Shown: positions 15,503 through 29,234 of the stretch, piece after piece
Numbering within the stretch: the stretch's first letter is position 1
Layout of the letters: each line of letters opens with the position of its first letter
From: Paludibacteraceae bacterium
Lineage (GTDB): Bacteria > Bacteroidota > Bacteroidia > Bacteroidales > Paludibacteraceae
Length of the DNA: 41,061 nucleotides
Assembly (NCBI GenBank): GCA_024399495.1
Contig: JAKSNY010000017.1
Coordinates: 1 to 41,061 of the forward strand
Direction: 5' to 3'
Translations under genes and position numbers: made by a program
The notes under the pieces: model-generated
Databases searched by the model: none
Told to the model about the DNA's origin: nothing
Seen by the model: the letters and a program-made list of their open reading frames with translations, nothing else

Positions 15503-15521
15503 ATTTATGTAATCTTTGATA

Positions 15522-15548
15522 CAAAGATACAATTTTTTTGTATATTTG
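15522..15548. promoter_or_regulatory. Divergent promoters for ispG and the RsbU-like phosphatase
   Basis: CAAAGATA at 15522-15529 is TATCTTTG on the minus strand, about 20 bases upstream of ispG. TATATTTG at 15541-15548 serves the plus strand, 21 bases upstream of the ATG at 15570. Both match TAnnTTTG exactly. The two -7 boxes are 11 bases apart, so polymerases would compete. Confidence 0.65.
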
Positions 15549-15569: not shown

Positions 15570-17252
15570 ATGCGAAGTAGAGAAGAAAGACGTAAATCTT
15601 TAGGCAATCTGGCATTACGTATGTCAGTAGCCGTATGTGTCACTGCACTTATAATTCTGATAGTCGGGGGATATTATGAATTTAAATATATCTATGACGC
15701 AACTATGGAACTTGCTGAAGAAGATGCTGTTGCTGCCATTGACGCATCTATCTTGTCAATAAACCTTAAACTTGAGCAAATTGAGGCGGCTGCCAACTCG
15801 TTTGACCTGTCAGATGAGCAGTATTTGAATCCTAAAGAGTGCTTGAAAGCCACGGAAAGATTCATAAAGGCATATCCTGCTGTAAATACGGCATCGGTTA
15901 TGTATGCCCCCGGATTTTCTCCTGACAGCAGTGATTGTTACATTGTAGGGGCTGCTCATTACAAGGATTCAGACAGTCTTATACTTGTTGACGGATACAA
16001 GGATATTGATTATATTAATGTAGATGATAATTGGAAAAACTCAGGTGAGAATGACACTGTATGGTGGTCAGAACCATTCTATTCCAAATTCCATACAGAA
16101 TTTTCATTTATCAGTTATTCCAAGCCGCTTAAGATTCAAAACTCAGATATCATATACGCAGTTTTTAATGCCTCCACAACACTAACTGATATGGAGGAGA
16201 TGATTGTAAAACTTAAGCCAGACCCCTTGTGTGACATTTCTGTAACAGGAAGAAATGGTATGTATGTATGTCGCAGAGATACAGCCAGCATTGCAAGAAA
16301 CGGGGATTATATGTCTGTGACCCGTCCGTTCCCGCGCTTAGGTGGAGAGATAACATGTACATTCCCTTATAAGATTATTACGCAATATATTAAAGAGGGG
16401 GTCGTGCATATCGTTATTACGCATGTCATTCTGCTTATAGCCCTTATTGCCGCCATAATACTTAGTGTCCATTTTATTGCCAAACCTTTTATGAAGAGAC
16501 ATAAGGAGGAGGTAAAACAGAATGCCGCTATGGAGGAGGACTTGAGTATAGCCTCTCAAATGCAGCAATGTATGTTGCCAAAAGAGTTGCCAAACCAGCC
16601 GTCTCTTGACATATATGCAAAATTGATACCCTCAAAATATGTTGGTGGAGACCTCTATCACTATTCAACAAAGCAGAACAAACTCTTTTTCTGTATAGGA
16701 GACGTATGTGGGAAAGGTGTGCCTGCCGCATTTTTTATGGCAGGGCTTGCAAGTGAATACTCTGTATTAAAAGACGTATCAGATGACCCGTCAGAAATAG
16801 TAAAGAAAATAAACGACGATGCAGCCATTAACAACGACCAATGTATGTTCAGTACCGTGTTTGCTGGTGTTCTTGACCTTGAAAAAGGGTACTTGGACTA
16901 TTGTAATGCGGGCCATAATCTGCCTATATGGAACAGTGCCAAGAATGGCGTTGATTGGTTGCCTGGCACTGATGATGGTGTTTTAGGCGTAAGTATTGAT
17001 GCCACATTCCACACTAAACGCATTAAATTTGAGAAAGGAGACTCTCTGTTGCTTTACACTGATGGTGTGACGGAAGCGGTAAATACTAAAAATGAGGAAT
17101 TTGGCAACGATGCCACCCTTACAGCCTTCAAGGAGTGTGCAGGGAAAAGTGCTAAGGATTCTATCAACTATATTCTGCAAAAAGTTGATGAGCATACCGG
17201 CGATGCCCTTCAAAGTGATGACATTACAATATTGTGCGTAAGGTATCTGTAG
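15570..17252 (+). CDS. Membrane-anchored RsbU/SpoIIE-type PP2C phosphatase with extracytoplasmic sensor
   Basis: This 560-aa protein has one transmembrane helix at about 16-36, an extracytoplasmic Cache-like sensor region (about 40-275), a second helix at about 279-303, a short linker and a C-terminal SpoIIE/RsbU-type PPM phosphatase (about 345-560). Phosphatase motifs: GGD at 359-361, IGDVCGKGVPAAFFMAG with Asp378, YCNAGHNLP, LLLYTDGVTEAVN and SDDITILCV. The usual second Asp of GGDxYD is His364. In partner-switching systems such enzymes dephosphorylate a STAS anti-anti-sigma factor that is phosphorylated by an RsbW-like kinase. An RsbW-like gene lies convergently two bases downstream, so the two probably act in one signalling route. 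No STAS protein is in the window. The ligand of the sensor is unknown. Confidence 0.88.
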   Translation: MRSREERRKSLGNLALRMSVAVCVTALIILIVGGYYEFKYIYDATMELAEEDAVAAIDASILSINLKLEQIEAAANSFDLSDEQYLNPKECLKATERFIKAYPAVNTASVMYAPGFSPDSSDCYIVGAAHYKDSDSLILVDGYKDIDYINVDDNWKNSGENDTVWWSEPFYSKFHTEFSFISYSKPLKIQNSDIIYAVFNASTTLTDMEEMIVKLKPDPLCDISVTGRNGMYVCRRDTASIARNGDYMSVTRPFPRLGGEITCTFPYKIITQYIKEGVVHIVITHVILLIALIAAIILSVHFIAKPFMKRHKEEVKQNAAMEEDLSIASQMQQCMLPKELPNQPSLDIYAKLIPSKYVGGDLYHYSTKQNKLFFCIGDVCGKGVPAAFFMAGLASEYSVLKDVSDDPSEIVKKINDDAAINNDQCMFSTVFAGVLDLEKGYLDYCNAGHNLPIWNSAKNGVDWLPGTDDGVLGVSIDATFHTKRIKFEKGDSLLLYTDGVTEAVNTKNEEFGNDATLTAFKECAGKSAKDSINYILQKVDEHTGDALQSDDITILCVRYL

Positions 17253-17254
17253 TC

Positions 17255-17659
17255 TTAAAAAATCAGTGTCAGACGGTTCTCTCCAAGTGACCTTTCGTAT
17301 CTGAGAGAGGTTGTCATTTGTTTCATAAGCATAATGCCCAAGCCACCTATTTTGCGTGTTTCAAGGTCATTACTAAGTTCTGTATCGTTCTGCTCAAGCG
17401 GATTGAACGGTTTTCCGCTGTCACAAAGAGTAACCATAGGGTTGCTACCTTCATTCGCTATCTCCACTCTTAAAGATCCGTCATCGGGGTAGGCATAGTT
17501 TATAATATTTACAACAGCCTCTTCAAGTGCCAGACATATATTGTTGTTGTCAGTGTTCAAGACACTCATAATGTCTCTGATTATTTTCTCTGAACCTACG
17601 CTTAGAGTGCTGTAGTTCAGTTGATTGCAGCTCTTATATTTAGTGGTTGCCTTTGTCAT
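17255..17659 (-). CDS. RsbW-like ATP-binding regulatory kinase (HATPase_c)
   Basis: This 134-aa stand-alone GHKL ATPase domain is of the anti-sigma/serine-kinase type. The N box is intact (ALEEAVVNIINYAYP, Glu47 and Asn51), the G1 box reads CDSGKPFNP (Asp80, Gly82), and a GGLGIMLMKQM G2-like loop follows. It should bind ATP and phosphorylate or sequester a partner. It is the last gene of the coaD-to-RsbW minus-strand run, overlaps the upstream RsbW-GNAT gene by four bases, and ends two bases from the convergent phosphatase. The partner (STAS protein or sigma factor) is not in the window. Confidence 0.88.
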   Translation of the reverse strand: MTKATTKYKSCNQLNYSTLSVGSEKIIRDIMSVLNTDNNNICLALEEAVVNIINYAYPDDGSLRVEIANEGSNPMVTLCDSGKPFNPLEQNDTELSNDLETRKIGGLGIMLMKQMTTSLRYERSLGENRLTLIF

Positions 17660-19128
17660 CTGTTTTGCTCTTTTAGGTGCATTTGCCTTATGGCGTATTC
17701 CTTTATCTCTTTACCCCAATCACTTACTGCAACTATAAGGTCAGGATTCAGGTTTGTGTTAACTATATATTGAAAATGTATGGTGTCTGCATCGTGTAAT
17801 TCGTATGGCATGATGCCTGAATAGCTGAATCCCATTTTTTCAACAACGGCTGTTGCATAATCAACAGCAGGGTCACTTAATGAAAGTTGCAGAAAGAACA
17901 CCTGCATGCCGTCAGACACCCCACGCATAAAGTTACGCCTCATACATAGTTCAAAATCCTTTCCTATTGTTGAAACCTGGCATATTGATTGGTCCCAATC
18001 AACCTTAAATGTATATGCGTATTCAGAATGTTCAGCTGTAGGTTTCCCTCCGTTTTGCAGTATGGTACGTTTTATGTTAAGCAGGTTATATGTCTTTTCA
18101 ATAATCTGTCTATGCCTTAATGGTATGTAAATCTCTCTCTTGTCAGTATGTGCTGTGGCTTTAAAATAGTTCATCACAGCCTGACGTTGCCCATTTGCCT
18201 TAGATACAACACTCTGTAAGTCAGCAGGTATATAAGATATTTCCATTCCTGTCTCAATACATCCAATTGCATTGTTACCTTGTTGTGTGAATGGGTGGGA
18301 GGTGACGGCACTGCTGAAAACCCCTCTCAGTCTGTCTTTTGCCGCCTGCTCTATCAGGGCTTGTTTCAGTTTTGAGAACAATCCTCTTTTGCCGTATTGC
18401 GGCGATACAAACGCCATTCCGCTCTCACAAATCGTATCGTCGGGGTTTGCCTTTACCATACCAATGTGAGCCACCACCTCACTGCTTGTGTTGGTGCATA
18501 CAATTCCCTTATATACCTTGCTCCTCATTCTTTCTGCCATATCGTCAGGTGAGTACATTGAGGCGGCAGAGTAGTTGTATCCGAAAACTTCATACAGACA
18601 ACGGACTATGCTTTTTAGGTCAGATGTTTTTGCCAGACGCATTTTAGTGGCATCGGTAGCAAGTATAATCTCCCTGCCTGCATTTTTTGCGGCATTTTCA
18701 GAAACCTTTTTCATCTCCTCAAGTGAAGAAGAAGGTAATGCCATGCTCATCTCAATGGTTTGTCCGTCCTTACCGTTGTAGATTACTTTGTATGAGGTAC
18801 TTAACGTTCTTATAAGTTGTAGGCTGATTTTGTCTTCCTCATTTTTTGCCTGGTTAGGGTCATACGCAAAAGGTATTCCCTTGTACATATATCGTAATAC
18901 AAAGGACTGTGCGTTAGTTTCACCTTGAAGTTGGATAACATGGTCAGGCTCACCATTATAGGCATAACGGACAATGCGTACAAACACCTCCTCAATCAGA
19001 ATGCATAGCTGAAAGCATTTCTCATCAGAAATTCCATAGTGCTTTGCCACTGCCTGAACATACTGTTGCAGAGGCTCCAAATGGTAGTTCTCTGAACTTA
19101 CTTTAATATCAAAAAGTTGTGTAGCCAT
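17656..19128 (-). CDS. Degenerate RsbW-like domain fused to GNAT acetyltransferase-like domain
   Basis: This is a 490-aa two-part protein. Residues 1-132 match the RsbW/HATPase fold, but the ATP-site residues are altered: the N box reads LIEEVFVRIVRYAY, with Arg at the Asn position (residue 51), and the G1 box reads RYMYKGIPFAYDP, with Tyr in place of Asp. It is probably a non-catalytic pseudo-kinase or docking module. Residues about 162-300 look like a GNAT acyltransferase (MRLAKTSDLKSIVRCLYEVF, then VSPQYGKRGLFSKLKQALIE as the acyl-CoA pyrophosphate loop region). The C-terminal about 170 residues, with DGMQVFFLQLSLSDPAVDYA and VEKMGFSYSGIMPY, are also GNAT-like, possibly a second degenerate copy. 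It overlaps the LuxC fusion by one base and the RsbW-like gene by four. The acyl acceptor is unknown. Confidence 0.75.
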   Translation of the reverse strand: MATQLFDIKVSSENYHLEPLQQYVQAVAKHYGISDEKCFQLCILIEEVFVRIVRYAYNGEPDHVIQLQGETNAQSFVLRYMYKGIPFAYDPNQAKNEEDKISLQLIRTLSTSYKVIYNGKDGQTIEMSMALPSSSLEEMKKVSENAAKNAGREIILATDATKMRLAKTSDLKSIVRCLYEVFGYNYSAASMYSPDDMAERMRSKVYKGIVCTNTSSEVVAHIGMVKANPDDTICESGMAFVSPQYGKRGLFSKLKQALIEQAAKDRLRGVFSSAVTSHPFTQQGNNAIGCIETGMEISYIPADLQSVVSKANGQRQAVMNYFKATAHTDKREIYIPLRHRQIIEKTYNLLNIKRTILQNGGKPTAEHSEYAYTFKVDWDQSICQVSTIGKDFELCMRRNFMRGVSDGMQVFFLQLSLSDPAVDYATAVVEKMGFSYSGIMPYELHDADTIHFQYIVNTNLNPDLIVAVSDWGKEIKEYAIRQMHLKEQNR

Positions 19129-21809
19129 TAAATACGTTTATCTATCACTTGCTTAAGTTTTCCTGTGCGTGGGTTACGGGGCAGTGTATCGGGGTTAAGA
19201 ACTATAGTCTTAGGCTTACAGATAGTACCCGTATTCACCATAGTCTCAAAATTATGGTCATTACGCATAAGGGTCTCATAAAGTTTCTCTGAAAGAGTCT
19301 TTAATTCAGCATCGGAGCAATGTTTTATTGTCTCAACCTCCACTGTAAGCAGGTCTTTATGTCCTTCCGTAGATGCTGTCATCCTAAAGTGCATACTCAG
19401 TTCCGGGATCATTCCAACCACTTTTGATATGGCTGATAGGGCGGTGTTGCCTGCCCCGATAATAAGCACATCATCACTTCTGCCAAGTAACTCCATCTGC
19501 TTTACTGTGCGTCCGCAAGGACAAGGGTCTGTAATGATTCTGCCCATATCGCCTATATCGTAACGTACAAGTGGCATTAGTCTGCGAGTGAAGTTTGTCA
19601 CCAAAATCTTACCTTCAGTGCCATCAGGCACAGGCTGGTTTGTCTCTGGGTCAACCACCTCCATATAGCAGTAACTCTCATGAATATGGTGAATGGCAGT
19701 CCCAACTGAAGTTTTAATCTGCTCTTCGCACTCAAATCCTATGCAGCCTGTATCGTTGCTTAGATAACCAGTAGAGGCAAAGACCTCTGTTTTAAGTATC
19801 TTAGAAATGTATTTTTTTGCTTCAGGGAACAGATGTTCTCCGCCTGTAACTATCTTTTTAAGGGTTACACCCTCCACATTGTTTTTGTCAACATATTCAG
19901 CAATACTAAGTATTACAGATGGAATAGAAATGGCTCCCACAGGCTTGTAAGCCTTTAGCATGCCCACTATAACTTCCATACTTATATTGCCGGCGATGGG
20001 CAGGATATGAGCCCCCACAGCCTCCAATGCTTCATTATGGCTAAGAAACGATGCCCACATATTGCCTGCGTATAGCAGGTTAGCCACCATATCGCCATGG
20101 TTAAATACGCTTAGGGCGTAGCCTTTACCTATAAGGCGGGCATTCTCATGTGTCTCATCCGTTGTGCGGTAAATGCACTTAGGGTCTCCTGTGGTGCCTC
20201 CGCTTGAATAAGAGATGCTATCTCCTAACTCTCTTGTCAGCAGACCTTTGCCTTTTGGTGGCAGATTTGCTTTAAGTTCATCAGGTGTAAGAATAGGCAA
20301 TTTTGCTATCTCATCCAAACTTTTCAGGTCATTTATAGGCAATTTGTCTGCATAATATTGCGAATGTGTTTTTGTGTAGTGAAGGAAAGAGTTAATTCGC
20401 ATTAAAGTTATCTCATCACGCTCACTTTTTGGCAGATAGTCAAACGGATTTTGGAAAGGTTCGTCACTGCCAACGCTTACCCAACGTACAAGTTCACTTA
20501 CGCCTCTTGTGCCATCGTGTGGTGTGCCGTGCTTGCGGCGTGTCATCCAGCCTATATCAGTTATACGGTCTGCCCCCAAGCCTACAAGTGCGTCTGAAAG
20601 TTTAAGTTTTAGTGCCGTAGGTGCCACAATGGCTATTGACTGTATGAATTTACCATACTCTTTTACTGCGTTCAGCGTATCGGTGGTATGGTCTTTGCTT
20701 ATTATTACAAACCCTGTACGGTGATGTGGACTAACCTTAAAAACGCAATTTTTTTGCAGTATAAGTGTCCAATCCTGATTGTTTATGGCAGGAATGACAA
20801 GTTCCGCCTCTCCTAAGGCTTGGTCAACTCTTGCAAGTTCTCTTGTGCGGGTAATCTCAACCGCCTCATTAAGGGGTATTGCAGAGTGGGGTATAACGCT
20901 TGCCCAATAGTTCAACTGCTCTGCAAGCACCTTTATAAATTTAGAAGCAAGTGCCTCATCATCAATAAATACTGCGTGTGGAGATGAGCAAGCGGACTGT
21001 TCCCACATAGTAAAGTCTCTTGCAAGTTGGTTTGCAATGCCCTCCATATTATCATCATTAAGGCTATCTTTTGAGAGTATTGCAAGTGAGTATTTAGGTC
21101 CGTACTCAATTATTTTAGTATGCAAGCCTGTACCTTGACGGTAAGCCTTTACAGTATCCTCTCCACCATAAACCACAAGCACATCACTCTCCATCTTGAC
21201 CACAGCCTCCACCTCTACATCGCCGCCCTTAAATGGTACAAGAGCAAATGAACGGCATAAAATACCCTTATAATCAACCTCTTGCAGAATTTCTGCAAAA
21301 ATCATCGGGAAAACAGGGTCCGCACTTGACATTTTAAGAATATTGACATTCTTGGTAATTATGCCCTGCACAAGTGTGTCAACGGCACTTACAAACACAT
21401 TGCCAGCCGATACATGAGATACCACACCCGAAGGTTCAGCCTTTACCATTCCCTTGAAAGCCTTGTTGTATGTAAACTCATCAAGGTATGCCACATCATC
21501 AATATCTGCCTTTATCCTTGCTTCAAGATTGTCATATTTAAGTACATCGATAATAACTTTAAGCCCCTCAATAACCATAGCCTCACTCCAGCCAAGTTGG
21601 TTGTGCATAATCTTTATAATGCTTTTAACCCTCTCTGATTCAAAATCTTCAAGAGCCTCTCCAGCACGGCTCAGTACATCAAGTATATAGGCAATAGGCA
21701 CACGGCGTATATCACTTACACGCTCCTTTGCCATACTCATCACAAGTTTTATATCTTCTACGGTGATACGCTCACTGTCACGCACTTCACCAAACAAATA
21801 CCACTTCAT
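19128..21809 (-). CDS. LuxC-like acyl-CoA reductase fused to PaaK/LuxE-like adenylate-forming ligase
   Basis: This 893-aa fusion has LuxC-type fatty-acyl reductase features in residues 1-445: SGVVSHVSAGNVFVSAVDTL at 127-146, MSSADPVFP, YGGEDTVKAYR, and the nucleophile Cys274 in WEQSACSSPHAVF. Residues about 450-893 are a PaaK-like AMP-ligase with SSGGTTGDPK at 535-544, VTGGEHLFPEAK, STGYLSNDTGCIGFEC, LVRYDIGDMGRI, CPCGRT, and the C-terminal catalytic-lysine region LPRNPRTGKLKQVIDKRI. Together the halves could adenylate an acid, load it as a thioester and reduce it with NAD(P)H to an aldehyde, like the LuxC/LuxE complex of luminous bacteria but in one chain. No luciferase is nearby. The gene starts one base after the luxE-like gene ends. 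The substrate is unknown. Confidence 0.87.
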   Translation of the reverse strand: MKWYLFGEVRDSERITVEDIKLVMSMAKERVSDIRRVPIAYILDVLSRAGEALEDFESERVKSIIKIMHNQLGWSEAMVIEGLKVIIDVLKYDNLEARIKADIDDVAYLDEFTYNKAFKGMVKAEPSGVVSHVSAGNVFVSAVDTLVQGIITKNVNILKMSSADPVFPMIFAEILQEVDYKGILCRSFALVPFKGGDVEVEAVVKMESDVLVVYGGEDTVKAYRQGTGLHTKIIEYGPKYSLAILSKDSLNDDNMEGIANQLARDFTMWEQSACSSPHAVFIDDEALASKFIKVLAEQLNYWASVIPHSAIPLNEAVEITRTRELARVDQALGEAELVIPAINNQDWTLILQKNCVFKVSPHHRTGFVIISKDHTTDTLNAVKEYGKFIQSIAIVAPTALKLKLSDALVGLGADRITDIGWMTRRKHGTPHDGTRGVSELVRWVSVGSDEPFQNPFDYLPKSERDEITLMRINSFLHYTKTHSQYYADKLPINDLKSLDEIAKLPILTPDELKANLPPKGKGLLTRELGDSISYSSGGTTGDPKCIYRTTDETHENARLIGKGYALSVFNHGDMVANLLYAGNMWASFLSHNEALEAVGAHILPIAGNISMEVIVGMLKAYKPVGAISIPSVILSIAEYVDKNNVEGVTLKKIVTGGEHLFPEAKKYISKILKTEVFASTGYLSNDTGCIGFECEEQIKTSVGTAIHHIHESYCYMEVVDPETNQPVPDGTEGKILVTNFTRRLMPLVRYDIGDMGRIITDPCPCGRTVKQMELLGRSDDVLIIGAGNTALSAISKVVGMIPELSMHFRMTASTEGHKDLLTVEVETIKHCSDAELKTLSEKLYETLMRNDHNFETMVNTGTICKPKTIVLNPDTLPRNPRTGKLKQVIDKRI

Positions 21810-21810
21810 A

Positions 21811-22932
21811 TCATCCTCTGTTTAATAGTTGGGCGGCACTGATACCGCAACCTGCATATTTCTTAACTCCGCCTCTTCCTTTAAGTACTATATATTTGCC
21901 CTCTCTGCCACAAGGACAGTCGCTCATTACGCAACCAAGGTCAGTTGACAGCAGTGATAGGGCAGGTGTTGAACGCAAATACGGAGTAATCAGTTTCAGC
22001 AGACCGACCTCTCCGTCAGGCAGCACCTCCATAGTTCTTGGGTCAACAGCACACACTCTTGAATAGACAGGAATATGAAAATGTCCGTGCTCACAAGTCA
22101 TGTAAGGCACTCCGTGTTCCACCATTCCATATACATCTCTGATACGGTCAGGCGTAAGACCAAGCACACGGTTCACAAGGGCGGCGTATTCCTCTTGTGA
22201 AATGGTCTTGCCTGTATAGTTTTTCCAGCCGCCACCGGAGAAAAGCACGCTCTCTTTAGGAAATGTAAAGTGTACCCCTCTCTTGTCAAGTTCGGTCAGT
22301 GTCATATAGCCGAATGCAGGAAATCCTGTTATTCTTAATGGTAGCCCCGATGCGGCGAATTTCTCAAGTTTTGCAATGCCCTCATCTACAGAGAAATCGG
22401 GGTTACCGTATTTATCCGCGTGTATTGCAAAAAATGTCTCATTCTCCTTTGCAAACTGTGCGTAGGCATTATGTGCGTATGCGGCGCCCCTTGTGCCTGA
22501 TACATCAGGGGCGTATGAGAATACCAAATTATTTACAAGTTGGTTATAATCTGCCAAGCCGTAACTCTCAACTATTGAGGTGCGCATAAATCCCTGACGC
22601 TCCATAGAAGTCTTGTCCCAATTTATCTGAGACTTGCTGCCTGTGGTGCCGCTTGATGTAAAGGTTTTTACAATATCGCTCTCAGGCAAACTGAGTAGTT
22701 TACGCTCTTTAAAAGCAGTGACAAATATGGCAGGAATATGCAGAATATCATCTTCTGAATTTATGTCATTCACAGAAAATCCGTATTGTTTCTGTATGCC
22801 GTTGAATATAACCGAGTGCTCAGAATGGAATGTGAACATCTCACGCACTGATTCCAAGAACAGCCTCGATGTGCCACCATAGTCAAAGGCATCTCTATGC
22901 TCAAAAAGTTTATTTGTCTTTTCCTCTGTCAT
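21811..22932 (-). CDS. LuxE-like acyl-protein synthetase
   Basis: This 373-aa member of the LuxE family activates a carboxylic acid as acyl-AMP and, in Lux systems, holds it on a Cys near the C-terminus. Visible motifs are FTSSGTTGSKSQI (ATP site, 91-103), LPLRITGFPAFGYM, VLFSGGGWKNYTGKTI, VYGMVEHGVPYMTCEHGHFH and STDLGCVMSDCPCGREG. It ends KKYAGCGISAAQLLNRG, which keeps a cysteine in the C-terminal part. It lacks the PaaK-type GKxKxxIDKR tail of its neighbours. It overlaps the PaaK-like gene upstream by four bases and lies one base from the LuxC fusion, a natural partner. Confidence 0.87.
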   Translation of the reverse strand: MTEEKTNKLFEHRDAFDYGGTSRLFLESVREMFTFHSEHSVIFNGIQKQYGFSVNDINSEDDILHIPAIFVTAFKERKLLSLPESDIVKTFTSSGTTGSKSQINWDKTSMERQGFMRTSIVESYGLADYNQLVNNLVFSYAPDVSGTRGAAYAHNAYAQFAKENETFFAIHADKYGNPDFSVDEGIAKLEKFAASGLPLRITGFPAFGYMTLTELDKRGVHFTFPKESVLFSGGGWKNYTGKTISQEEYAALVNRVLGLTPDRIRDVYGMVEHGVPYMTCEHGHFHIPVYSRVCAVDPRTMEVLPDGEVGLLKLITPYLRSTPALSLLSTDLGCVMSDCPCGREGKYIVLKGRGGVKKYAGCGISAAQLLNRG

Positions 22933-24164
22933 AATACTCTCTTATCTATAATTTTCTTTATTTTGCCTGTTATTGGATTGCGTGGCAGGCTTCCAAGCGG
23001 TTTCAGCACCACTTCATATCTATGGAAGAAACCTAACTCCTCTCCACCTTTCAAATCCTTGATTAACTCTTGCAGGCGTGAACGCAATTTAAGTGCTGTA
23101 TCCTGACGTTTCTCAGGCTCATCACACTCAACAGTAAGAATTATGTCCATTTGGTTGCCCACATCTTCAAGCACAAGTTGGAAGTTCATACTCAAATCAC
23201 CGAATTCAGAGATTCCTTTTTCAAACTCCCCGATGGTTACGTATGCACCGCCAAGTTTGAAATCCTCTCCTGCACGTCCTGCAAGTTGAAATACACCTTT
23301 CTCCTTGTCAATCCATTTTGCCATATCGCCTATGCGGTAACGGATAATAGGTTGCAGTTTGCGTACAAGATTGGTTATCACAATCTCACCAAATTCACCA
23401 TTATGTACTGGTTGCAGGGTATCGGGGTTAAGTATTTCTATAAATTGGAAGTCTTGTGGCAGATGATAGGTGCCAAAGCCGTCATCAAGGGTCTGAATGC
23501 CCATAATGCCGCAATCACTGCTGGTGTAGGCGAGTGCCTTTATATACTTGACTCCTAACCATTTGCGTACATGGGCTTCCGCCTCTCGGCTTAGTTGTTC
23601 TCCTGCGTATGCAATAAGTCTCAGATTCTTGAACGGCTTGCCCTCTTTTTTTGCTAAATCAGCCAAAAATACAAACATAGTAGGTAGGGATACCATAACG
23701 GTAGGCTCATATTGGCGGCATATCCTATAAATATCCTCTACAGGAATGTTGCTTGAAATAGGCAGGTGAACACCGCAGGAGTGGGTAATCATCTCGTGAA
23801 CCCCTATGAATGATGGCCATAGGTGACCTGCTACAAACAGGTTTGCAATTATATCACCGGGTTTGACACCTAATGTCAGAAACGCCTCGCCCTGTTTTCC
23901 GCAAAAGGCGTCCCATTCAGCGTTTGAGAGCACCACGGTTCTTGCAACACCTGTAGAGCCTCCTGTTGACAGCACTATGGCATTTTCAAGTGGTGCAGTC
24001 AGCATTGCTGTGGAAGCCGGATATGTATTCTGAAACAAATCATTGCGAGTGAGGAACGGTACTTTAAGCCAATCCTCATAACTTTCCGGCTCTTTGACAC
24101 CCTTATACTTTTCTGCATAATAGGGTGATTTCAACGCCTCTTTAAAAATTTCAAATGCTTTCAT
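22929..24164 (-). CDS. PaaK-like adenylate-forming ligase
   Basis: This 411-aa protein is of the phenylacetate-CoA ligase/coenzyme F390 synthetase type. Motifs: VLSTGGSTGVARTVVLSN at 64-81 (ATP phosphate loop), LIAYAGEQLSREAEAH, ALAYTSSDCGIMGIQ, ITNLVRKLQPIIRYRIGDMA, and the C-terminal LPRNPITGKIKKIIDKRV with the catalytic Lys. It should form an acyl-AMP and transfer the acyl group to CoA or a carrier thiol. It resembles the C-terminal half of the LuxC fusion, which suggests duplication. Its 5' end overlaps the MATE exporter gene by 14 bases. Substrate unknown. Confidence 0.85.
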   Translation of the reverse strand: MKAFEIFKEALKSPYYAEKYKGVKEPESYEDWLKVPFLTRNDLFQNTYPASTAMLTAPLENAIVLSTGGSTGVARTVVLSNAEWDAFCGKQGEAFLTLGVKPGDIIANLFVAGHLWPSFIGVHEMITHSCGVHLPISSNIPVEDIYRICRQYEPTVMVSLPTMFVFLADLAKKEGKPFKNLRLIAYAGEQLSREAEAHVRKWLGVKYIKALAYTSSDCGIMGIQTLDDGFGTYHLPQDFQFIEILNPDTLQPVHNGEFGEIVITNLVRKLQPIIRYRIGDMAKWIDKEKGVFQLAGRAGEDFKLGGAYVTIGEFEKGISEFGDLSMNFQLVLEDVGNQMDIILTVECDEPEKRQDTALKLRSRLQELIKDLKGGEELGFFHRYEVVLKPLGSLPRNPITGKIKKIIDKRVL

Positions 24165-25464
24165 CTGTTATTTTTACTTTGCAAATTTTATATAAAAGCA
24201 GCCCTATGGCTACTGCCAAAACGTCTCCAATCCAAAATGAGTGCCATATAAGTTCCGGGTTGATTTTAACTATGCACCACATTACAGGTGCCACCATAAA
24301 TGAGTGTGTTATTGCCAATATACATGATAGTGTTCTCCTTTTTTGAATAAGGCATATTATAAACAGCAGGTAGCTTATGCCAAAGAATGGAAAACAGATA
24401 CAGAATATACGCAAGGCAGGTATAGTCAGCTCCAGACACTCTCCACTTAGTCCAAAGAGTCTTGCAATAGGAGATGCAAGTATATTTACAATTATTACCA
24501 ATGCCACACCGCTTACAATAAGCACTATGGCAGACATTTTAACAACCCACTGCACACCTTGTTTGTTCCCTTCTCCACCCAATCTGCCTGCAAGTGGTTG
24601 CAATGCCTGTGATGTGCCTGCCACCACCATATTCATAAACATAAGCACAGCCATCAGTACAGCCATTATTGACATTCCGTACTGAGGAAGTGTGTCCATA
24701 ATTATGTGGTTAGCCCAAAGAACACGAACAAACATAGTGGCTGTGTCCGCTACAAGCGGAAGCCCCATAGTAAGCAGACTTATAATAGCCACATCCTTGA
24801 AATTAACGTTTAGTTTTAGGGTGCTGTCATTATATGTAAAGTGTATGCACATTAGTGCCAAAGCCAATGCATAGCCTGTGGCGGTAGCCCATGCCGCACC
24901 ACCTATACCCATTCCAAAGAATTTTATATAGACGTAATCACAGGTAAGATTTACGACATTTGCTAAAATCATTGCCACAAGTACAAGTCTCGGACTGTTG
25001 TCAGTCCTTATATATGCAGCCAAATTCTGTATCATAAAGAACAGCGGGGCAGTGTAGAACATAACCACACCGTATGCCTTGGCATCTGCAAAAAGAGTGG
25101 TATCCGAGCAGAACACTTTAATGCACGCATCGGGGCAAACAAGACCTAAAGCGGTGAATATGAATCCAATGGCAAGTGTCAGTATAGATGACATTGTAAA
25201 GTAGCCATTAGATACATTGTAGTTTTTCTGCCCTATTCCGTATGCCGCAAGTAACGCACCGCCCATACTGAGCAGCATTACAAGTGCCACTGACAGTTGA
25301 ATAAACGGCATCATAATGTTAATTGCAGCCAACCCTGTATGCCCTATAAGGTTGCCCACAATTATTCCGTCAACCATAACAGCCAGTGCGGTAGTAAGTG
25401 ATGTCAGCACTGCCGATATCAGATACCTTGAGAACATTGTCTTTATCTCTTCTTTGGTAGTCAT
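24151..25464 (-). CDS. MATE-family efflux transporter
   Basis: This 437-aa integral membrane protein has about 12 hydrophobic helices and the MATE layout: N-terminal LTTALAVMVDGIIVGNLIG, GLAAINIMMPF, LLSMGGALLAAYGIG in helix 2-3, and a repeat-related second half with MAVLMFMNMVVAGTSQALQPL. MATE proteins export cationic or hydrophobic small molecules using Na+ or H+ gradients. Its place between two adenylate-forming enzymes, overlapping one by 14 bases, suggests it exports the product of the cluster or protects against it. It lies six bases after the adenylate-forming gene upstream. Confidence 0.9.
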   Translation of the reverse strand: MTTKEEIKTMFSRYLISAVLTSLTTALAVMVDGIIVGNLIGHTGLAAINIMMPFIQLSVALVMLLSMGGALLAAYGIGQKNYNVSNGYFTMSSILTLAIGFIFTALGLVCPDACIKVFCSDTTLFADAKAYGVVMFYTAPLFFMIQNLAAYIRTDNSPRLVLVAMILANVVNLTCDYVYIKFFGMGIGGAAWATATGYALALALMCIHFTYNDSTLKLNVNFKDVAIISLLTMGLPLVADTATMFVRVLWANHIIMDTLPQYGMSIMAVLMAVLMFMNMVVAGTSQALQPLAGRLGGEGNKQGVQWVVKMSAIVLIVSGVALVIIVNILASPIARLFGLSGECLELTIPALRIFCICFPFFGISYLLFIICLIQKRRTLSCILAITHSFMVAPVMWCIVKINPELIWHSFWIGDVLAVAIGLLLYKICKVKITDESI

Positions 25465-25470
25465 TGGTTA

Positions 25471-26841
25471 TCAGTCTGTTATGAATTTGTGCTTGGTGCC
25501 TGTAGGTATATTGTTAATGTCATCTACTTTAAGTCTGATTAGCGATACATTTACAGATTTAGAGAGATTCTGGTATTTTATGCGGAACTCTGCACTGTAA
25601 TCACAAAGGTAATCAATAAGTTTACTGAAATAATTGGATTCCAATGTGTTACGCTTATTGTCAAGATTCTGTGTACGTATGTAAACCTTAAATTCAAGGT
25701 ACGATATGCCCTCAGTCTGTTTCTCCGATACGGTAAACAGTCCTCCGTACTCCATATCGGCAGGTTGTGAGAGTAGAAACTCCTGTATGTCGTTTATCAT
25801 AAGGTTAGTGCCGTAGAAAATTACGGCATTGCCCACACGCCCGTGAATATACATAACCTTGCCTGCCTTGATGTTTGACAGCAACGGTGCCACAAGTTCC
25901 TGTGGTACATCTTTCAACTGTTCTTCTGTAACTAATCCGCCTGAATCGGCTGTGTTATAGCGTACAAGTGGAATAAATTGGTCTTTTGTCACCACTATAT
26001 TGCCGTCAACAGCCTCAATATAGACATCGGGGCTGAGGCATTCAAGTATCATAGGAGTTGATTCTGAACCAAACACCTTTTTTGAGAGTTCAGGGTGCTT
26101 GTAGAAATATTTTCTAAGTTTTATGCTGTTCTCGGTTTCTTGCGATACGTAACCAGTATCGGCACTGCCATAACCTGTCCACACTATATTGTAGGCATCT
26201 TTAGGGTGCCCGAACAGTTCACATACATACTCACGGAATGATTCTGTGAAATACTCTCCAACCACTGCGAAATAGACGCTTGCCTTTGGCAGTTCTATGT
26301 TGTTCTGCTTGATAAGGGCGGCTATAAGCGGCAGGTTACCCGGGTTTGTTGTGATTATGATTTGGTCATATCTCTTGTGATACTGACCTATTACATCAAC
26401 AGCTGTCTTTAGGTCAAGTCCTGGAGTTGCAAGGGTCATTCTGTATTTGCCACTCAATGCTATGTTACGATATGCCGTGGCTATCTGCATTCCACCTATC
26501 CACATTCCAAATGCAAGACACTCAATCATCAGGGTCTTTTTTGTGTCAATGTGGTAGTTTGTAACAAACATTGTCTCAATGCCCTGCATATAGCCAGCCT
26601 CATCTTGCGGACGCTTAGGCCAATATACGGCACCTGTTTTTGAGAACCCTGAACTTGCACCTATCAGGTGGATTTTATCCAATTCTCCCTCTTCACACAA
26701 TTCCTCCATCGGGTAAGAAAGCAGATAATTGCTTTTTGTAAGCAGAGGCAAATCTTTAAACTCACCTGACCACTCAGGTGTCATCTTGCGGTATGCTGTT
26801 ACGTTATTCCGTATCTTGGTTGCAAATTCTGTTACGTTCAT
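25471..26841 (-). CDS. Divergent adenylate-forming (PaaK/LuxE-like) protein
   Basis: This 456-aa protein is placed in the PaaK/LuxE superfamily by order of motifs: HLIGASSGFSKTGAVYWPKR (phosphate loop, near residue 60), YFAVVGEYFTESFREYV, WTGYGSADTGYVSQET, IPLVRYNTADSGGLV and YIHGRVGNAVIFYGTNL. The C-terminal tail ends NNIPTGTKHKFITD, so the PaaK-like GKxK lysine region is only loosely kept. It may have an altered substrate or have lost the second half-reaction. It lies 18 bases after the phosphopantetheinyl transferase and six before the MATE gene. Functional assignment is limited to fold. Confidence 0.75.
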   Translation of the reverse strand: MNVTEFATKIRNNVTAYRKMTPEWSGEFKDLPLLTKSNYLLSYPMEELCEEGELDKIHLIGASSGFSKTGAVYWPKRPQDEAGYMQGIETMFVTNYHIDTKKTLMIECLAFGMWIGGMQIATAYRNIALSGKYRMTLATPGLDLKTAVDVIGQYHKRYDQIIITTNPGNLPLIAALIKQNNIELPKASVYFAVVGEYFTESFREYVCELFGHPKDAYNIVWTGYGSADTGYVSQETENSIKLRKYFYKHPELSKKVFGSESTPMILECLSPDVYIEAVDGNIVVTKDQFIPLVRYNTADSGGLVTEEQLKDVPQELVAPLLSNIKAGKVMYIHGRVGNAVIFYGTNLMINDIQEFLLSQPADMEYGGLFTVSEKQTEGISYLEFKVYIRTQNLDNKRNTLESNYFSKLIDYLCDYSAEFRIKYQNLSKSVNVSLIRLKVDDINNIPTGTKHKFITD

Positions 26842-26859
26842 TTTACTGCATCTTTGATA

Positions 26860-27429
26860 TCAAGTGGTTTTGAATTTGGCTATGGTATATACATACCCTT
26901 TTTCTGCGTTTTCAACTGTATATAAATCGTAGATATCGGGGGTAAGTGTATCTTGCATAAAGTCTGTTATACCTGTGCCTGTGAGTTTGCTTACAGCCTC
27001 TTTCTGTGTCCAAAGTCTTGTGAATGCAAGGCTTGGATTGGCGGAGGCGTTTATGAGTGCCGCCTCTTTTGCATTCATAACTTTATCTATAAGTCCGTCA
27101 GATGGTTGCTTTATGGCTTCAATATCCACCCCGATGGGTTCTGTATCCACCGCCACTGCTATCCCTTTTTTGCAGTGGCTTATATTAAAATAAGTGCCTT
27201 TAAGTTGTTTTAAGAAGGGCTTGCCGTTTTCTCCGTACCCCCAATCGGAGACTTTATCTGTGGAGCCTATCATATCCTGAAGCATACAATAAGATTTGAG
27301 GGAGGCAAACTGCCCAAACAGATGCCTGAATTTCAGAGCCTCTTCTCTACGCCAGGCAGGAACCCTGTCAATCAGGCTTGCAATGGAATCCTGATTTATA
27401 GTGTCCATATCATCAAAAATCTCCAGCAT
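26860..27429 (-). CDS. 4'-phosphopantetheinyl transferase (Sfp-like)
   Basis: This 189-aa protein moves the phosphopantetheine arm of CoA to a carrier-protein serine. Motifs: FNISHCKKGIAVAV at 81-94, IGVDIEAI with Asp102 and Glu104 (Mg binding), and FTRLWTQKEAVSKLTG with Trp140, Lys143 and Glu144. It is shorter than Sfp. It starts inside the coaD stop codon (one-base overlap, TAATG), so CoA-pathway enzyme and CoA-consuming enzyme are coupled. No carrier protein was found in the cluster; its target may be the general ACP or a carrier elsewhere. Confidence 0.9.
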   Translation of the reverse strand: MLEIFDDMDTINQDSIASLIDRVPAWRREEALKFRHLFGQFASLKSYCMLQDMIGSTDKVSDWGYGENGKPFLKQLKGTYFNISHCKKGIAVAVDTEPIGVDIEAIKQPSDGLIDKVMNAKEAALINASANPSLAFTRLWTQKEAVSKLTGTGITDFMQDTLTPDIYDLYTVENAEKGYVYTIAKFKTT

Positions 27430-27851
27430 TAAATCTCCACCCCATATTTATGCAGTTCACGGGCTACAGTAGATGATACCTCCTTAAGTTTGGGGTCTGC
27501 AAGCATGTAGAGTGTCTCTACCCCAAAAACAGTGTAGTTTACACGGGTTATTTCATTTTCGTAGTCCAAATCCACTGAGTTGCGGATTCCCCTTATTATA
27601 AAGTTAATGCCCATCTCCTTAACAACCTGTGCTGTAAGGGTGTTGTAGCCTATAACCTCAACCTTTGGATTACCATCGTATATTTTCTTAATGCTGTCAA
27701 CCACCGATACAGAGGATTTGGCATCGGAGTGTTTTTCTGAATTTACGCCAACGGCAATAATCACTTTGTCAAATAGTGAGCATGCTCTGTCCACTATATT
27801 TTTATGACCTATCGTAAATGGATTGAACGTTCCTGGAAACAAAACTCTCAT
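27429..27851 (-). CDS. coaD: Phosphopantetheine adenylyltransferase
   Basis: This 140-aa enzyme makes dephospho-CoA from phosphopantetheine and ATP, the penultimate CoA step. The ATG at 27851 gives the canonical start MRVLFPGTFNPFTIGHKNIV with the GxFxPxxxGH nucleotidyltransferase motif; an upstream extension to 27932 would overlap the lipoprotein gene and adds unrelated residues. Other motifs: GVNSEKH and NFIIRGIRNSVDLDYE. It is somewhat short at the C-terminus. It starts four bases after the stop of the upstream lipoprotein gene and is coupled to the phosphopantetheinyl transferase. As an essential housekeeping gene it may simply have been co-opted as the first gene of the cluster. Confidence 0.92.
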   Translation of the reverse strand: MRVLFPGTFNPFTIGHKNIVDRACSLFDKVIIAVGVNSEKHSDAKSSVSVVDSIKKIYDGNPKVEVIGYNTLTAQVVKEMGINFIIRGIRNSVDLDYENEITRVNYTVFGVETLYMLADPKLKEVSSTVARELHKYGVEI

Positions 27852-27855
27852 AGCT

Positions 27856-29211
27856 TTATTGTATAAAATCAAAATGCCTTGCCCTGCCCTTGTAAGAGTC
27901 AAGAACAAACTCACCGCTATCAGTAAAGCCACCTAAAACGTATATATTGCCATCTTTATCAGATACTATATTACAACCATATTTTAACCTGAAATCCTGG
28001 AATGGAATATTTTGGTAATATTTGCTCTCATACCATGAATACCCTTTATCATCACTCACATACATTTTATCTAAATAACCCGATTCGGTTTGTCCGCCTA
28101 TCATAAATATTTTTTTATCATAGCAAGTGGCACCTGCATTTTTAATAGAGGGGAATATATATTTTTCTTCTAAAGGGGATTTACGTACGTCTGTCCAATA
28201 CCACATATTATCTGATGAAAACGCTGTGTTTAAAAAATTACCATCTTCATCAAGTCCGCCTAAAAGATATGAAACAATCATACGACTCTCATAAGCAGAA
28301 GATGTATTTGTTATACAAACCTTTGCCGCACCACCTTGTTCCGGGAAATAAGACGGATTATTAAATCCAATATTCTCTATGATTCCAGTTTCAATGTCAA
28401 AGCCAAGAATTGTGTTTTCTGATTCATTGTTTTTGGCAAGAATCACAATTTTTGTATCTAAAATATCGTACGCTCCTATAATGTCTAATGCAGTATAATC
28501 GTTAGGAATATCAGCAACCTTAAGAAACGTAAAATCTGCTGACATTAAATAAATTGAGTTGTCGTTACCCAAAGCGGCAATCGTTTCCTCATCTAAGTTA
28601 GGTGAAATATATAACGTAGATAGATTGATATCCCAAGTTCCTGAACTTTTCTGAAACCAAGTTTCAGCGTCATAACTTGTATAAACGTATGTCTTACCAT
28701 CTGTTGATGTCCCTATAAGTACAGGTATCCCATTAACAACAAGTACTTTAGCACAATTAAAAGTAATATCTATGTTATTACTTAATTCTGACCATATTAT
28801 CTCATCAGAATTCACTTTGTGCTTGATTACCGTAACTGTTACATCTCTTATTGTTTTTTTATCTGCCGCCACAATGGTAAGTTTAAACGGATTGCTTGCA
28901 TCTATGGGGTCAACTTGATTCCATGCCTTGTCATTTATTCTTATTTCTGACGGGGCACTTACACAGCCAACTTTTGGAACTACTTTTGTAAGATTAGACG
29001 TATAAGCTACAGAATCCACGTTGTAGATTCTACCATTATTTAAATCCACTTTAAAAGCAATGTTTTTTAAATCTGGAGCGGAATCGTTAGCCGCAAAAGT
29101 AAATCTTGTTATTCCTGTTTCGCTTGATGCGGTACTTTTTTTGCAACTCTCTAAAGATGTAAGAAATACAAACAATAGTGTGGCACACACTATAATAACT
29201 TTACTGTTCAT
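27856..29211 (-). CDS. Secreted lipoprotein, DUF6242/kelch-like
   Basis: This 451-aa protein starts with a hydrophobic signal segment VIIVCATLLFVFLTSLESC followed by KKS, a weak lipobox with Cys near residue 23. The ATG at 29211 is preferred over 29226 because it gives a compact signal peptide and leaves about 18 bases of leader. After a beta-rich N-terminal part (residues 30-135) come repeated short blades with kelch-like features: FMIGGQTESGYLDKMYVS, IYVLGGFTDSGEF and SDDKGYSWYESKY. This looks like the DUF6242 family of Bacteroidales. Function is unknown; a surface beta-propeller is likely. It sits four bases before coaD and so may head the coaD operon. Confidence 0.7.
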   Translation of the reverse strand: MNSKVIIVCATLLFVFLTSLESCKKSTASSETGITRFTFAANDSAPDLKNIAFKVDLNNGRIYNVDSVAYTSNLTKVVPKVGCVSAPSEIRINDKAWNQVDPIDASNPFKLTIVAADKKTIRDVTVTVIKHKVNSDEIIWSELSNNIDITFNCAKVLVVNGIPVLIGTSTDGKTYVYTSYDAETWFQKSSGTWDINLSTLYISPNLDEETIAALGNDNSIYLMSADFTFLKVADIPNDYTALDIIGAYDILDTKIVILAKNNESENTILGFDIETGIIENIGFNNPSYFPEQGGAAKVCITNTSSAYESRMIVSYLLGGLDEDGNFLNTAFSSDNMWYWTDVRKSPLEEKYIFPSIKNAGATCYDKKIFMIGGQTESGYLDKMYVSDDKGYSWYESKYYQNIPFQDFRLKYGCNIVSDKDGNIYVLGGFTDSGEFVLDSYKGRARHFDFIQ

Positions 29212-29234
29212 ATCTTTTGTATCCATAATACGTG

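Follow-up and report, generated by a model that had tools for sequence, protein, structure and literature searches.

A patchily distributed LuxE, LuxC::PaaK and GNAT gene cassette in Paludibacteraceae, with partner-switch genes and a possible role in aldehyde synthesis

The window analysed here is an entire contig of 41,061 nucleotides (JAKSNY010000017.1, assembly GCA_024399495.1) from a Paludibacteraceae bacterium whose genome is 2.08 Mb long and 82.5% complete. It carries a genuine and conserved gene cassette that is rare and has a patchy distribution. At its core are a LuxE gene, a fused LuxC::PaaK gene and an acyltransferase gene of the GNAT family, to which most loci add a second PaaK and an exporter. 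In the window the GNAT is fused to an RsbW-like HATPase domain (HAT::GNAT) and lies beside genes for RsbW and RsbU. Our reading, held tentatively and at slightly less than an even chance, is of a horizontally spread cassette whose product would be a small N-acylated aldehyde, or else a ring or alcohol formed from that aldehyde, with synthesis gated by a partner switch at the acyltransferase. An earlier note on the same DNA had proposed an acid-activation and reduction system with partner-switch regulators, and its claims are taken up below where the evidence bears on them.

Core genes, their distribution and their history

The LuxC::PaaK fusion was found in five of 16 genomes of the genus (the source genome included) and in none of 25 other relatives, and inheritance of the cassette is patchy. 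The other carriers are G002, G003, G010 and the 64% identical G005; three relatives found with the locus are Paludibacteraceae metagenome-assembled genomes from horse faeces. LuxE, LuxC::PaaK and HAT::GNAT occur together in G002, G003 (where the cluster is spread over two contigs) and G005, and the G010 contig ends inside the fusion. The stand-alone PaaK, the MATE exporter and a divergent adenylate-forming enzyme join this core in G002, G003 and G010, and are absent from the 36 kb of G005 that was fetched. Co-location in relatives, on which the earlier note had staked its reading in advance, thus holds for LuxE, LuxC::PaaK and the GNAT.

Further afield, a Streptomyces plasmid record (NBC_00158) has the order PaaK-MFS-GNAT-LuxE-LuxC::PaaK, which tblastn also recovered in plasmid records of S. 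cattleyicolor and Streptomyces BHT-5-2. On a Salmonella enterica plasmid the order is LuxE-LuxC::PaaK-PaaK-GNAT (a second plasmid has the GNAT in two frames), and genome G701, which belongs to another order and is cut by its contig start, has MFS, GNAT (391 amino acids, aa, with no HATPase domain), LuxE and LuxC::PaaK. The fusion was matched over at least 80% of its length in six plasmid records, five of them examined; the plasmid and phage matches examined were H1-H3, H7, H8, H22, H27, H28, H32, H48, H54, H62, H63 and H64. No Escherichia coli genome with a match to the Salmonella cassette DNA was found. Since the set recurs across phyla, the arrangement is not due to chance.

One profile scan of all loci, with LuxC and LuxE profiles built from Bacteroidales rows, found the family GNAT in 13 of 14 LuxC::PaaK loci and in none of the 13 loci in which LuxC stands without a PaaK fusion. 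The exception (L117) is cut off by a contig end, and counts as a fusion locus only because the part of its LuxC that can be seen is 94% identical to L070. Fusion loci found independently of the GNAT are L123 (via LuxC) and L126, L129, L130, L131 and L133 (via LuxE or LuxC::PaaK); the GNATs of L123, L126, L128 and L131 were included in training the GNAT profile and those of L129, L130 and L133 were outside it. A stand-alone PaaK is present in 11 of the 14 fusion loci and an exporter in nine (eight MFS and the window MATE), making export likely, as the earlier note had supposed.

Among 393 Bacteroidales genomes, HAT::GNAT matches occur in 31, extending over most of the length in 22 (counted from the listing), and LuxE and LuxC::PaaK are adjacent in six of these 22 (the source genome, G347, G226, G294, G370 and G093). 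The LuxE profile matches 282 of the 393, mainly in short stretches of other adenylate-forming enzymes, and exceeds 560 bits in seven: the six just named and G311, whose contig ends inside LuxC. Next by score come G350 (332 bits), with a LuxC/LuxE pair and neither PaaK nor family GNAT, and then six genomes at 153–195 bits; because the profile was built from HAT::GNAT-positive loci, co-occurrence of LuxE and HAT::GNAT over the 393 genomes is biased. As for rarity, a LuxE query at 1e-30 found two of 395 genomes of the phylum (the source genome and G350), and a LuxC query found 12 of 395 genomes of the class, mostly weakly.

In both the LuxE and the LuxC tree the window groups with G005, G347 and G093 (99/97 for LuxE, where this is a clade of four rows, and 98/94 for LuxC). 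The Streptomyces, Salmonella, G701, G226, G294 and G370 rows fall elsewhere, in a second group that for LuxC also holds unfused proteins (G350, Chloroflexota, a phage record and S. europaeiscabiei). A single origin of the fusion was rejected, as monophyly of the PaaK domains gave p = 0.013 in the approximately unbiased test (p-AU), a test set after tree inspection with the divergent-enzyme rows left out. The four-row window PaaK group including G093 gave p-AU 0.073. These trees hint that LuxC and PaaK may have joined, or parted, more than once, which is only tentative because of long branches.

A third LuxE clade (100/99) holds six sequences from Bacteroidales loci that look like glycan clusters (L119-L122, L124 and L125; labels by eye), which bears on a rival explanation in which LuxE and LuxC make a fatty aldehyde or acyl group decorating a surface glycan or lipid. 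Such a role has been proposed for luxC/luxE of flagellin glycosylation islands and of O-antigen loci. Extracts of two papers place LuxE and LuxC with glycosylation genes in islands of Enterobacteriaceae and Aeromonas, flagellin glycosylation islands that resemble the cassette in uniting LuxE, LuxC and an AMP-dependent ligase (PMC4875605, PMC7874193), and a LuxE domain is on record, again in an extract, for RfbN of Vibrio cholerae. The islands differ in their glycosyltransferase context, a distinction drawn from these descriptions rather than from island sequences, whereas no glycosyltransferase was recognised among the ten window proteins scanned. The Bacteroidales loci that resemble the islands lack both the family GNAT and the PaaK fusion, and with their LuxE in a separate clade we consider a glycan or lipid role for the cassette decidedly unlikely.

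Several other observations concern LuxE and LuxC loci. The genes of L119-L122, L124 and L125 lie among ketosynthase-, SDR- or transketolase-half-like genes (by eye, and not all in each locus), and in L119-L121 LuxE and LuxC are fused to each other. LuxE and LuxC also occur in a human-faecal record labelled 'Bacteriophage sp.', which is unverified (L134:11716-14093), and a Streptomyces europaeiscabiei plasmid has YcaO, MBL-fold, DUF692, LuxE and LuxC genes together (L132:1658-10116), perhaps a peptide-modifying locus. Urocanase adjoins the HAT::GNAT or LuxCE cluster in two families (L056:1807-3855 and L070:15758-17755 by Pfam, L117:3589-5595 by eye). A LuxE homologue of Riemerella is on record in an extract of PMC4772473.

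Acid activation, reduction and the proposed pathway

The LuxC and LuxE profiles match two chains of the fatty acid reductase complex 7xc6 (7.2e-62 and 9.7e-42). The LuxC acyl cysteine, C274, was aligned with 7xc6_A, and all 21 aligned LuxC proteins have a cysteine there (four LuxC rows of the tree are absent from this alignment). The LuxE acyl cysteine, C362, lies near the C-terminus, is invariant in 7/7 sequences and aligns with residue 364 of PDB 7xc6_E; in another LuxE the catalytic cysteine is likewise numbered 362, according to an extract of a review (PMC12655506). Scores against NCBIfam equivalogs are far under cut-off for LuxC (141.5 versus 750 bits) and LuxE (94.7 versus 550 bits), and also for the curated PaaK equivalog (fusion 147.6 and stand-alone 88.8 versus 646.3 bits), with which the cassette proteins share a superfamily only. 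The PaaK domains of the clusters keep what we take to be the A3-type loop and the A10-type lysine. Profiles and acyl cysteines agree with the acid activation and reduction that the earlier note proposed, and this enzyme logic is fairly secure.

In the pathway we propose, PaaK-type ligases would activate a carboxylic acid, and the GNAT would move the acyl group onto an amine, for instance an amino acid. By homology to the LuxC-LuxE complex, LuxE would adenylate the free carboxylate, load it onto Cys362 and hand the acyl group to Cys274 of LuxC, which would reduce it with NAD(P)H to an aldehyde, and MATE or MFS proteins would export the product. We infer this order of reactions, and an N-acyl aldehyde as product, from the gene families.

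A simpler rival is plain reduction of a fatty or aryl acid to an aldehyde or alcohol, in which case the GNAT would serve in self-protection or acylate some unrelated small molecule. In luminous bacteria LuxE and LuxC reduce fatty acids, and it is their reductase complex that the window proteins match, sharing the LuxE adenylation fold, both acyl cysteines and adjacent genes. The cassette differs from that system in its LuxC::PaaK fusion, GNAT, further PaaK and exporter, and plain reduction, which we judge improbable, offers no explanation for the additional adenylate-forming domains or for the constancy of the GNAT. A lux operon remnant was rejected since the genome (82.5% complete) has no match to luciferase family PF00296, bearing out the statement of the earlier note that no luciferase is in view, and anti-phage defence was rejected as none of five proteins scanned had a PADLOC match.

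Other routes to aldehydes can also be compared with the pathway proposed here. The leupeptin pathway uses separate ligases instead of a nonribosomal peptide synthetase (NRPS). Its product is a peptide aldehyde encoded by a small dedicated operon, leupABCD, which has an adjacent transporter in Klebsiella, Photorhabdus and Xenorhabdus; we liken the cassette to it by description only, from extracts of two papers (PMC11480411, PMC8283571). NRPSs with a terminal reductase (AusA type, giving a pyrazinone or peptide aldehyde) also combine activation, amide formation and reductive release, and one occurs in the same genus beside RsbU::RsbW and STAS (L116, below); the cassette, unlike these, has no condensation, carrier or reductase domain. 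No paper on this gene set was among the matches listed from open-licence PMC full text (subscription papers lay outside the search), in keeping with the earlier note, which knew of no named pathway with this set.

Two genes that the earlier note had counted in find no support as members of the cassette. CoaD was ruled out as a member as it has no cluster adjacency in relatives: in G003 and G010 it is divergent and 2.7–5 kb from the phosphopantetheinyl transferase (PPTase) gene, and it is not in the fetched stretches of G002 and G005. The PPTase is no evidence of a dedicated carrier step and was ruled out as a pathway-specific enzyme, as it is the only PF01648 match of its genome. Twelve of the 16 genus genomes were searched for PPTase and STAS; ten of these have one PF01648 match each and two (G001 and G002, both incomplete) none. 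The genes for the PPTase and the divergent enzyme are neighbours in G003 and G010, which is not so in G002. That no carrier protein is in view holds for the cassette but not for the genome, where four stand-alone carrier-protein-like open reading frames (86–91 aa) lie elsewhere (G000 C5, 26978-29924, two close together; C6; C14), and a carrier acting in trans is therefore possible.

The divergent enzyme, aligned with the PaaK domain by hhalign (Table 1), has no Pfam or NCBIfam match and no credible PDB relative (best E 0.14). A homologue with 43% identity lies in the G347 cluster, and around two homologues in the plasmid collection the 25 kb fetched contain neither LuxE nor LuxC.

The acyltransferase and its proposed partner switch

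The earlier note missed that the GNAT belongs to the pathway and is not only a regulator. The alignment of the GNAT half of HAT::GNAT to four GNATs that have no HATPase domain spans its length (probability 99.6, E 3.4e-24). The window GNAT itself is under the Pfam cut-off (18.1 versus 20.7 bits), and 17 of 22 HAT::GNAT homologues have an Acetyltransf_1 match (E up to 0.01). An RsbW-like HATPase domain is found on the GNAT in Bacteroidales only, the GNATs outside Bacteroidales having no such domain.

Also missed was that this fused domain looks degenerate. In the window its ATP site is eroded, with R51 at what we take to be the N-box Asn, Y82 at the presumed G1 Asp and no presumed G2 glycine. 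Across 22 homologues the N, D and G residues are kept in 12, 11 and 15 rows, with all three kept in four (nine if Glu is accepted for Asp); the six aligned LuxCE-cluster rows include none with all three (one if Glu is accepted). The fused domain would seem to be degenerate often, though not always.

The only two HATPase_c_2 proteins of the genome above cut-off are both in the window, and together with the SpoIIE phosphatase these Pfam assignments support the partner-switch regulators of the earlier note; the RsbW kinase alone has no PDB match at 0.01. A third component, which the note overlooked, lies elsewhere in the source genome: a stand-alone STAS gene (G000:C25:59060-59347, motif ISSSGLR) that we infer to be the partner of the window RsbW. 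An ISS(S/A)GL motif is present in 9/9 STAS sequences inspected. All five carriers among the 12 genomes searched have a stand-alone STAS, which in G000, G002, G003 and G010 is a 98–99 aa gene after a phosphoglycerate-mutase-like gene (label by eye), while the G005 cluster runs on into MFS, RsbU::RsbW and STAS. Five of the seven non-carriers have only a longer STAS protein (open frames of 375–575 aa), and two (G001 and G012) have STAS beside RsbU::RsbW. Over 23 fetched HAT::GNAT loci, several on short contigs, SpoIIE was seen in eight and STAS in ten.

In non-carrier G012, PPTase, NRPS, RsbU::RsbW and STAS form one run (L116:706-9839), the NRPS having two adenylation, one condensation, two carrier and one terminal reductase domains, so that the genus has a second aldehyde-type route with a switch of this kind next to it. 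In G001, RsbU::RsbW and STAS stand beside a cut 1924-aa open frame (L115:903-8736).

The set resembles the RsbU-RsbV-RsbW and SpoIIE-SpoIIAA-SpoIIAB systems in having a SpoIIE phosphatase with a sensor, a HATPase_c_2 kinase and a STAS protein with ISSSGLR. It differs in the fusion of an RsbW-like domain to a GNAT and in that no sigma factor was recognised in the run (a genome-wide search for one was not made). Partner switching with an enzyme as output has precedents in SiaC-SiaD and HsbA-HsbD. In Bacteroidales the RsbW-like domain on the GNAT, probably inactive as a kinase, may dock the STAS protein, which RsbU, sensing an outside ligand, would dephosphorylate and RsbW would phosphorylate. 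Such direct gating of the GNAT would act on the acyltransferase itself, beyond transcription alone.

Alternatively, HAT::GNAT may be mainly a signal-controlled protein or polyamine acyltransferase, with LuxC, LuxE and PaaK merely supplying the acyl donor. HAT::GNAT without LuxCE adjoins a histone-deacetylase-family gene in L066:10660-11700 (Pfam), L071:10724-11791 and L074:2514-3560 (both by clustering), and aldehyde dehydrogenases lie nearby in L071 (Pfam) and L072 (clustering), both of which also have STAS. In Streptomyces, Salmonella and G701, however, a GNAT without HATPase is in one run with LuxE and LuxC::PaaK or PaaK, and supply of an acyl donor needs no aldehyde-forming reductase; we regard this alternative as unlikely.

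The neighbourhoods vary in other ways. An NMT1-like gene adjoins the RsbU/RsbW module in L075:13071-14078 (Pfam), with the same cluster in L059, L069 and L077, and an annotated substrate-binding protein does so in L128:11530-12444; such a neighbour is perhaps a ligand sensor of the module. A gene of the biopterin-dependent hydroxylase family adjoins HAT::GNAT in L063:10807-12534 (Pfam) and L065:3131-4888 (clustering).

A number of points weigh against a switch-gated cassette for an N-acylated aldehyde. Sixteen of the 22 Bacteroidales HAT::GNAT genomes gave no strong LuxE match, and HAT::GNAT therefore has other roles; a plausible ATP site also survives in some HAT::GNATs. Three of the 14 fusion loci (L029, L077 and L123) lack the stand-alone PaaK and no exporter was seen in five, and as the fused PaaK domains are not one clade the clusters need not all share one product. 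The STAS gene lies outside the cluster in near carriers, the minus strand has four terminator-like patterns inside the run, and the quality of the AlphaFold models was too low for use (HAT::GNAT pLDDT 31, a model confidence score; divergent enzyme 44). Both substrate and product are putative. The broader claim, that this is an undescribed NRPS-free thioester-relay class making N-acyl (peptide-like) aldehydes in at least three phyla, with synthesis in Bacteroidales gated by an RsbW-like pseudokinase on the amide-forming acyltransferase, is somewhat unlikely.

Layout of the window and wider meaning

All of the genes listed in the earlier note are present (Table 1), in one minus-strand run (17255-27851) with gaps of at most 18 base pairs (bp) and with RsbU convergent to it. 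Overlaps join CoaD and PPTase (1 bp), MATE and PaaK (14 bp), PaaK and LuxE (4 bp), LuxC::PaaK and HAT::GNAT (1 bp) and HAT::GNAT and RsbW (4 bp); 18 bp separate PPTase from the divergent enzyme, 6 bp the latter from MATE, 1 bp LuxE from LuxC::PaaK and 2 bp RsbW from RsbU. The protein scan of the run also gave an AMP-binding Pfam match (9.5e-12).

Table 1. Features of the cassette region, in window coordinates
Feature	Coordinates	Strand	Basis and remarks
Bacteroidota-type promoter match, TTTG-spacer-TANNTTTG	15515..15548	+	Directly 5' of RsbU ATG; consensus scan
RsbU/SpoIIE-type phosphatase, PDC extracytoplasmic sensor	15570..17252	+	Pfam SpoIIE 3.3e-46, PDC 5.4e-06
RsbW-like kinase	17255..17659	-	Pfam HATPase_c_2; N-box Asn, G1, G2 motifs (presumed names) intact by eye
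HATPase::GNAT fusion	17656..19128	-	Residues 12-128 RsbW-like (HATPase_c_2), 160-486 GNAT of cassette family
LuxC::PaaK fusion, 893 aa	19128..21809	-	LuxC 1-446 (C274), PaaK 447-893 (presumed A10-type K884); LuxC 8.2e-80
LuxE, acyl-protein synthetase type	21811..22932	-	Pfam LuxE 7.3e-42; acyl cysteine C362
Stand-alone PaaK-like adenylate-forming ligase	22929..24164	-	Family profiles
MATE exporter	24151..25464	-	Pfam MatE 1.9e-29; MFS instead in eight related loci
Divergent adenylate-forming (ANL) enzyme, accessory	25471..26841	-	hhalign probability 97.3 to PaaK domain
PPTase, probably housekeeping	26860..27429	-	Pfam ACPS 5.7e-15; genome's only PF01648 match
CoaD, housekeeping, outside cassette	27429..27851	-	Pfam CTP_transf_like 1.1e-17; position in relatives

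Upstream of CoaD the same-strand run goes on into a DUF6242/Kelch protein gene (27856-29226), and CoaD is therefore not the evident start of the run. The other nine flanking proteins scanned are housekeeping-like (MurF, uridine kinase, GcpE, PEPCK, MetK, chorismate synthase, EPSP synthase, Rel and UvrA). The scan for what we take to be the Bacteroidota-type promoter consensus gave five matches in the window against 1.41 expected, a number reached by 3 of 100 shuffles, and a sigma-70 scan was not above chance (48 found versus 41.7 expected, standard deviation 6.6). Terminator-like patterns, which are patterns only, number 21 between 13900 and 29400 against 10.5 expected from shuffles, and those inside the run make a single transcript only putative.

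The minimal set of LuxE, LuxC::PaaK and GNAT, in most loci joined by a second PaaK and an exporter, marks what is probably a new family of aldehyde metabolites made by gut and soil bacteria, one that rules based on NRPS or polyketide synthase genes would overlook. A further suggestion is that partner switching may act on a biosynthetic enzyme through the direct fusion of domains. Small peptide aldehydes inhibit proteases and can form signals by cyclisation, and a producer in the gut could therefore affect its neighbours or its host.

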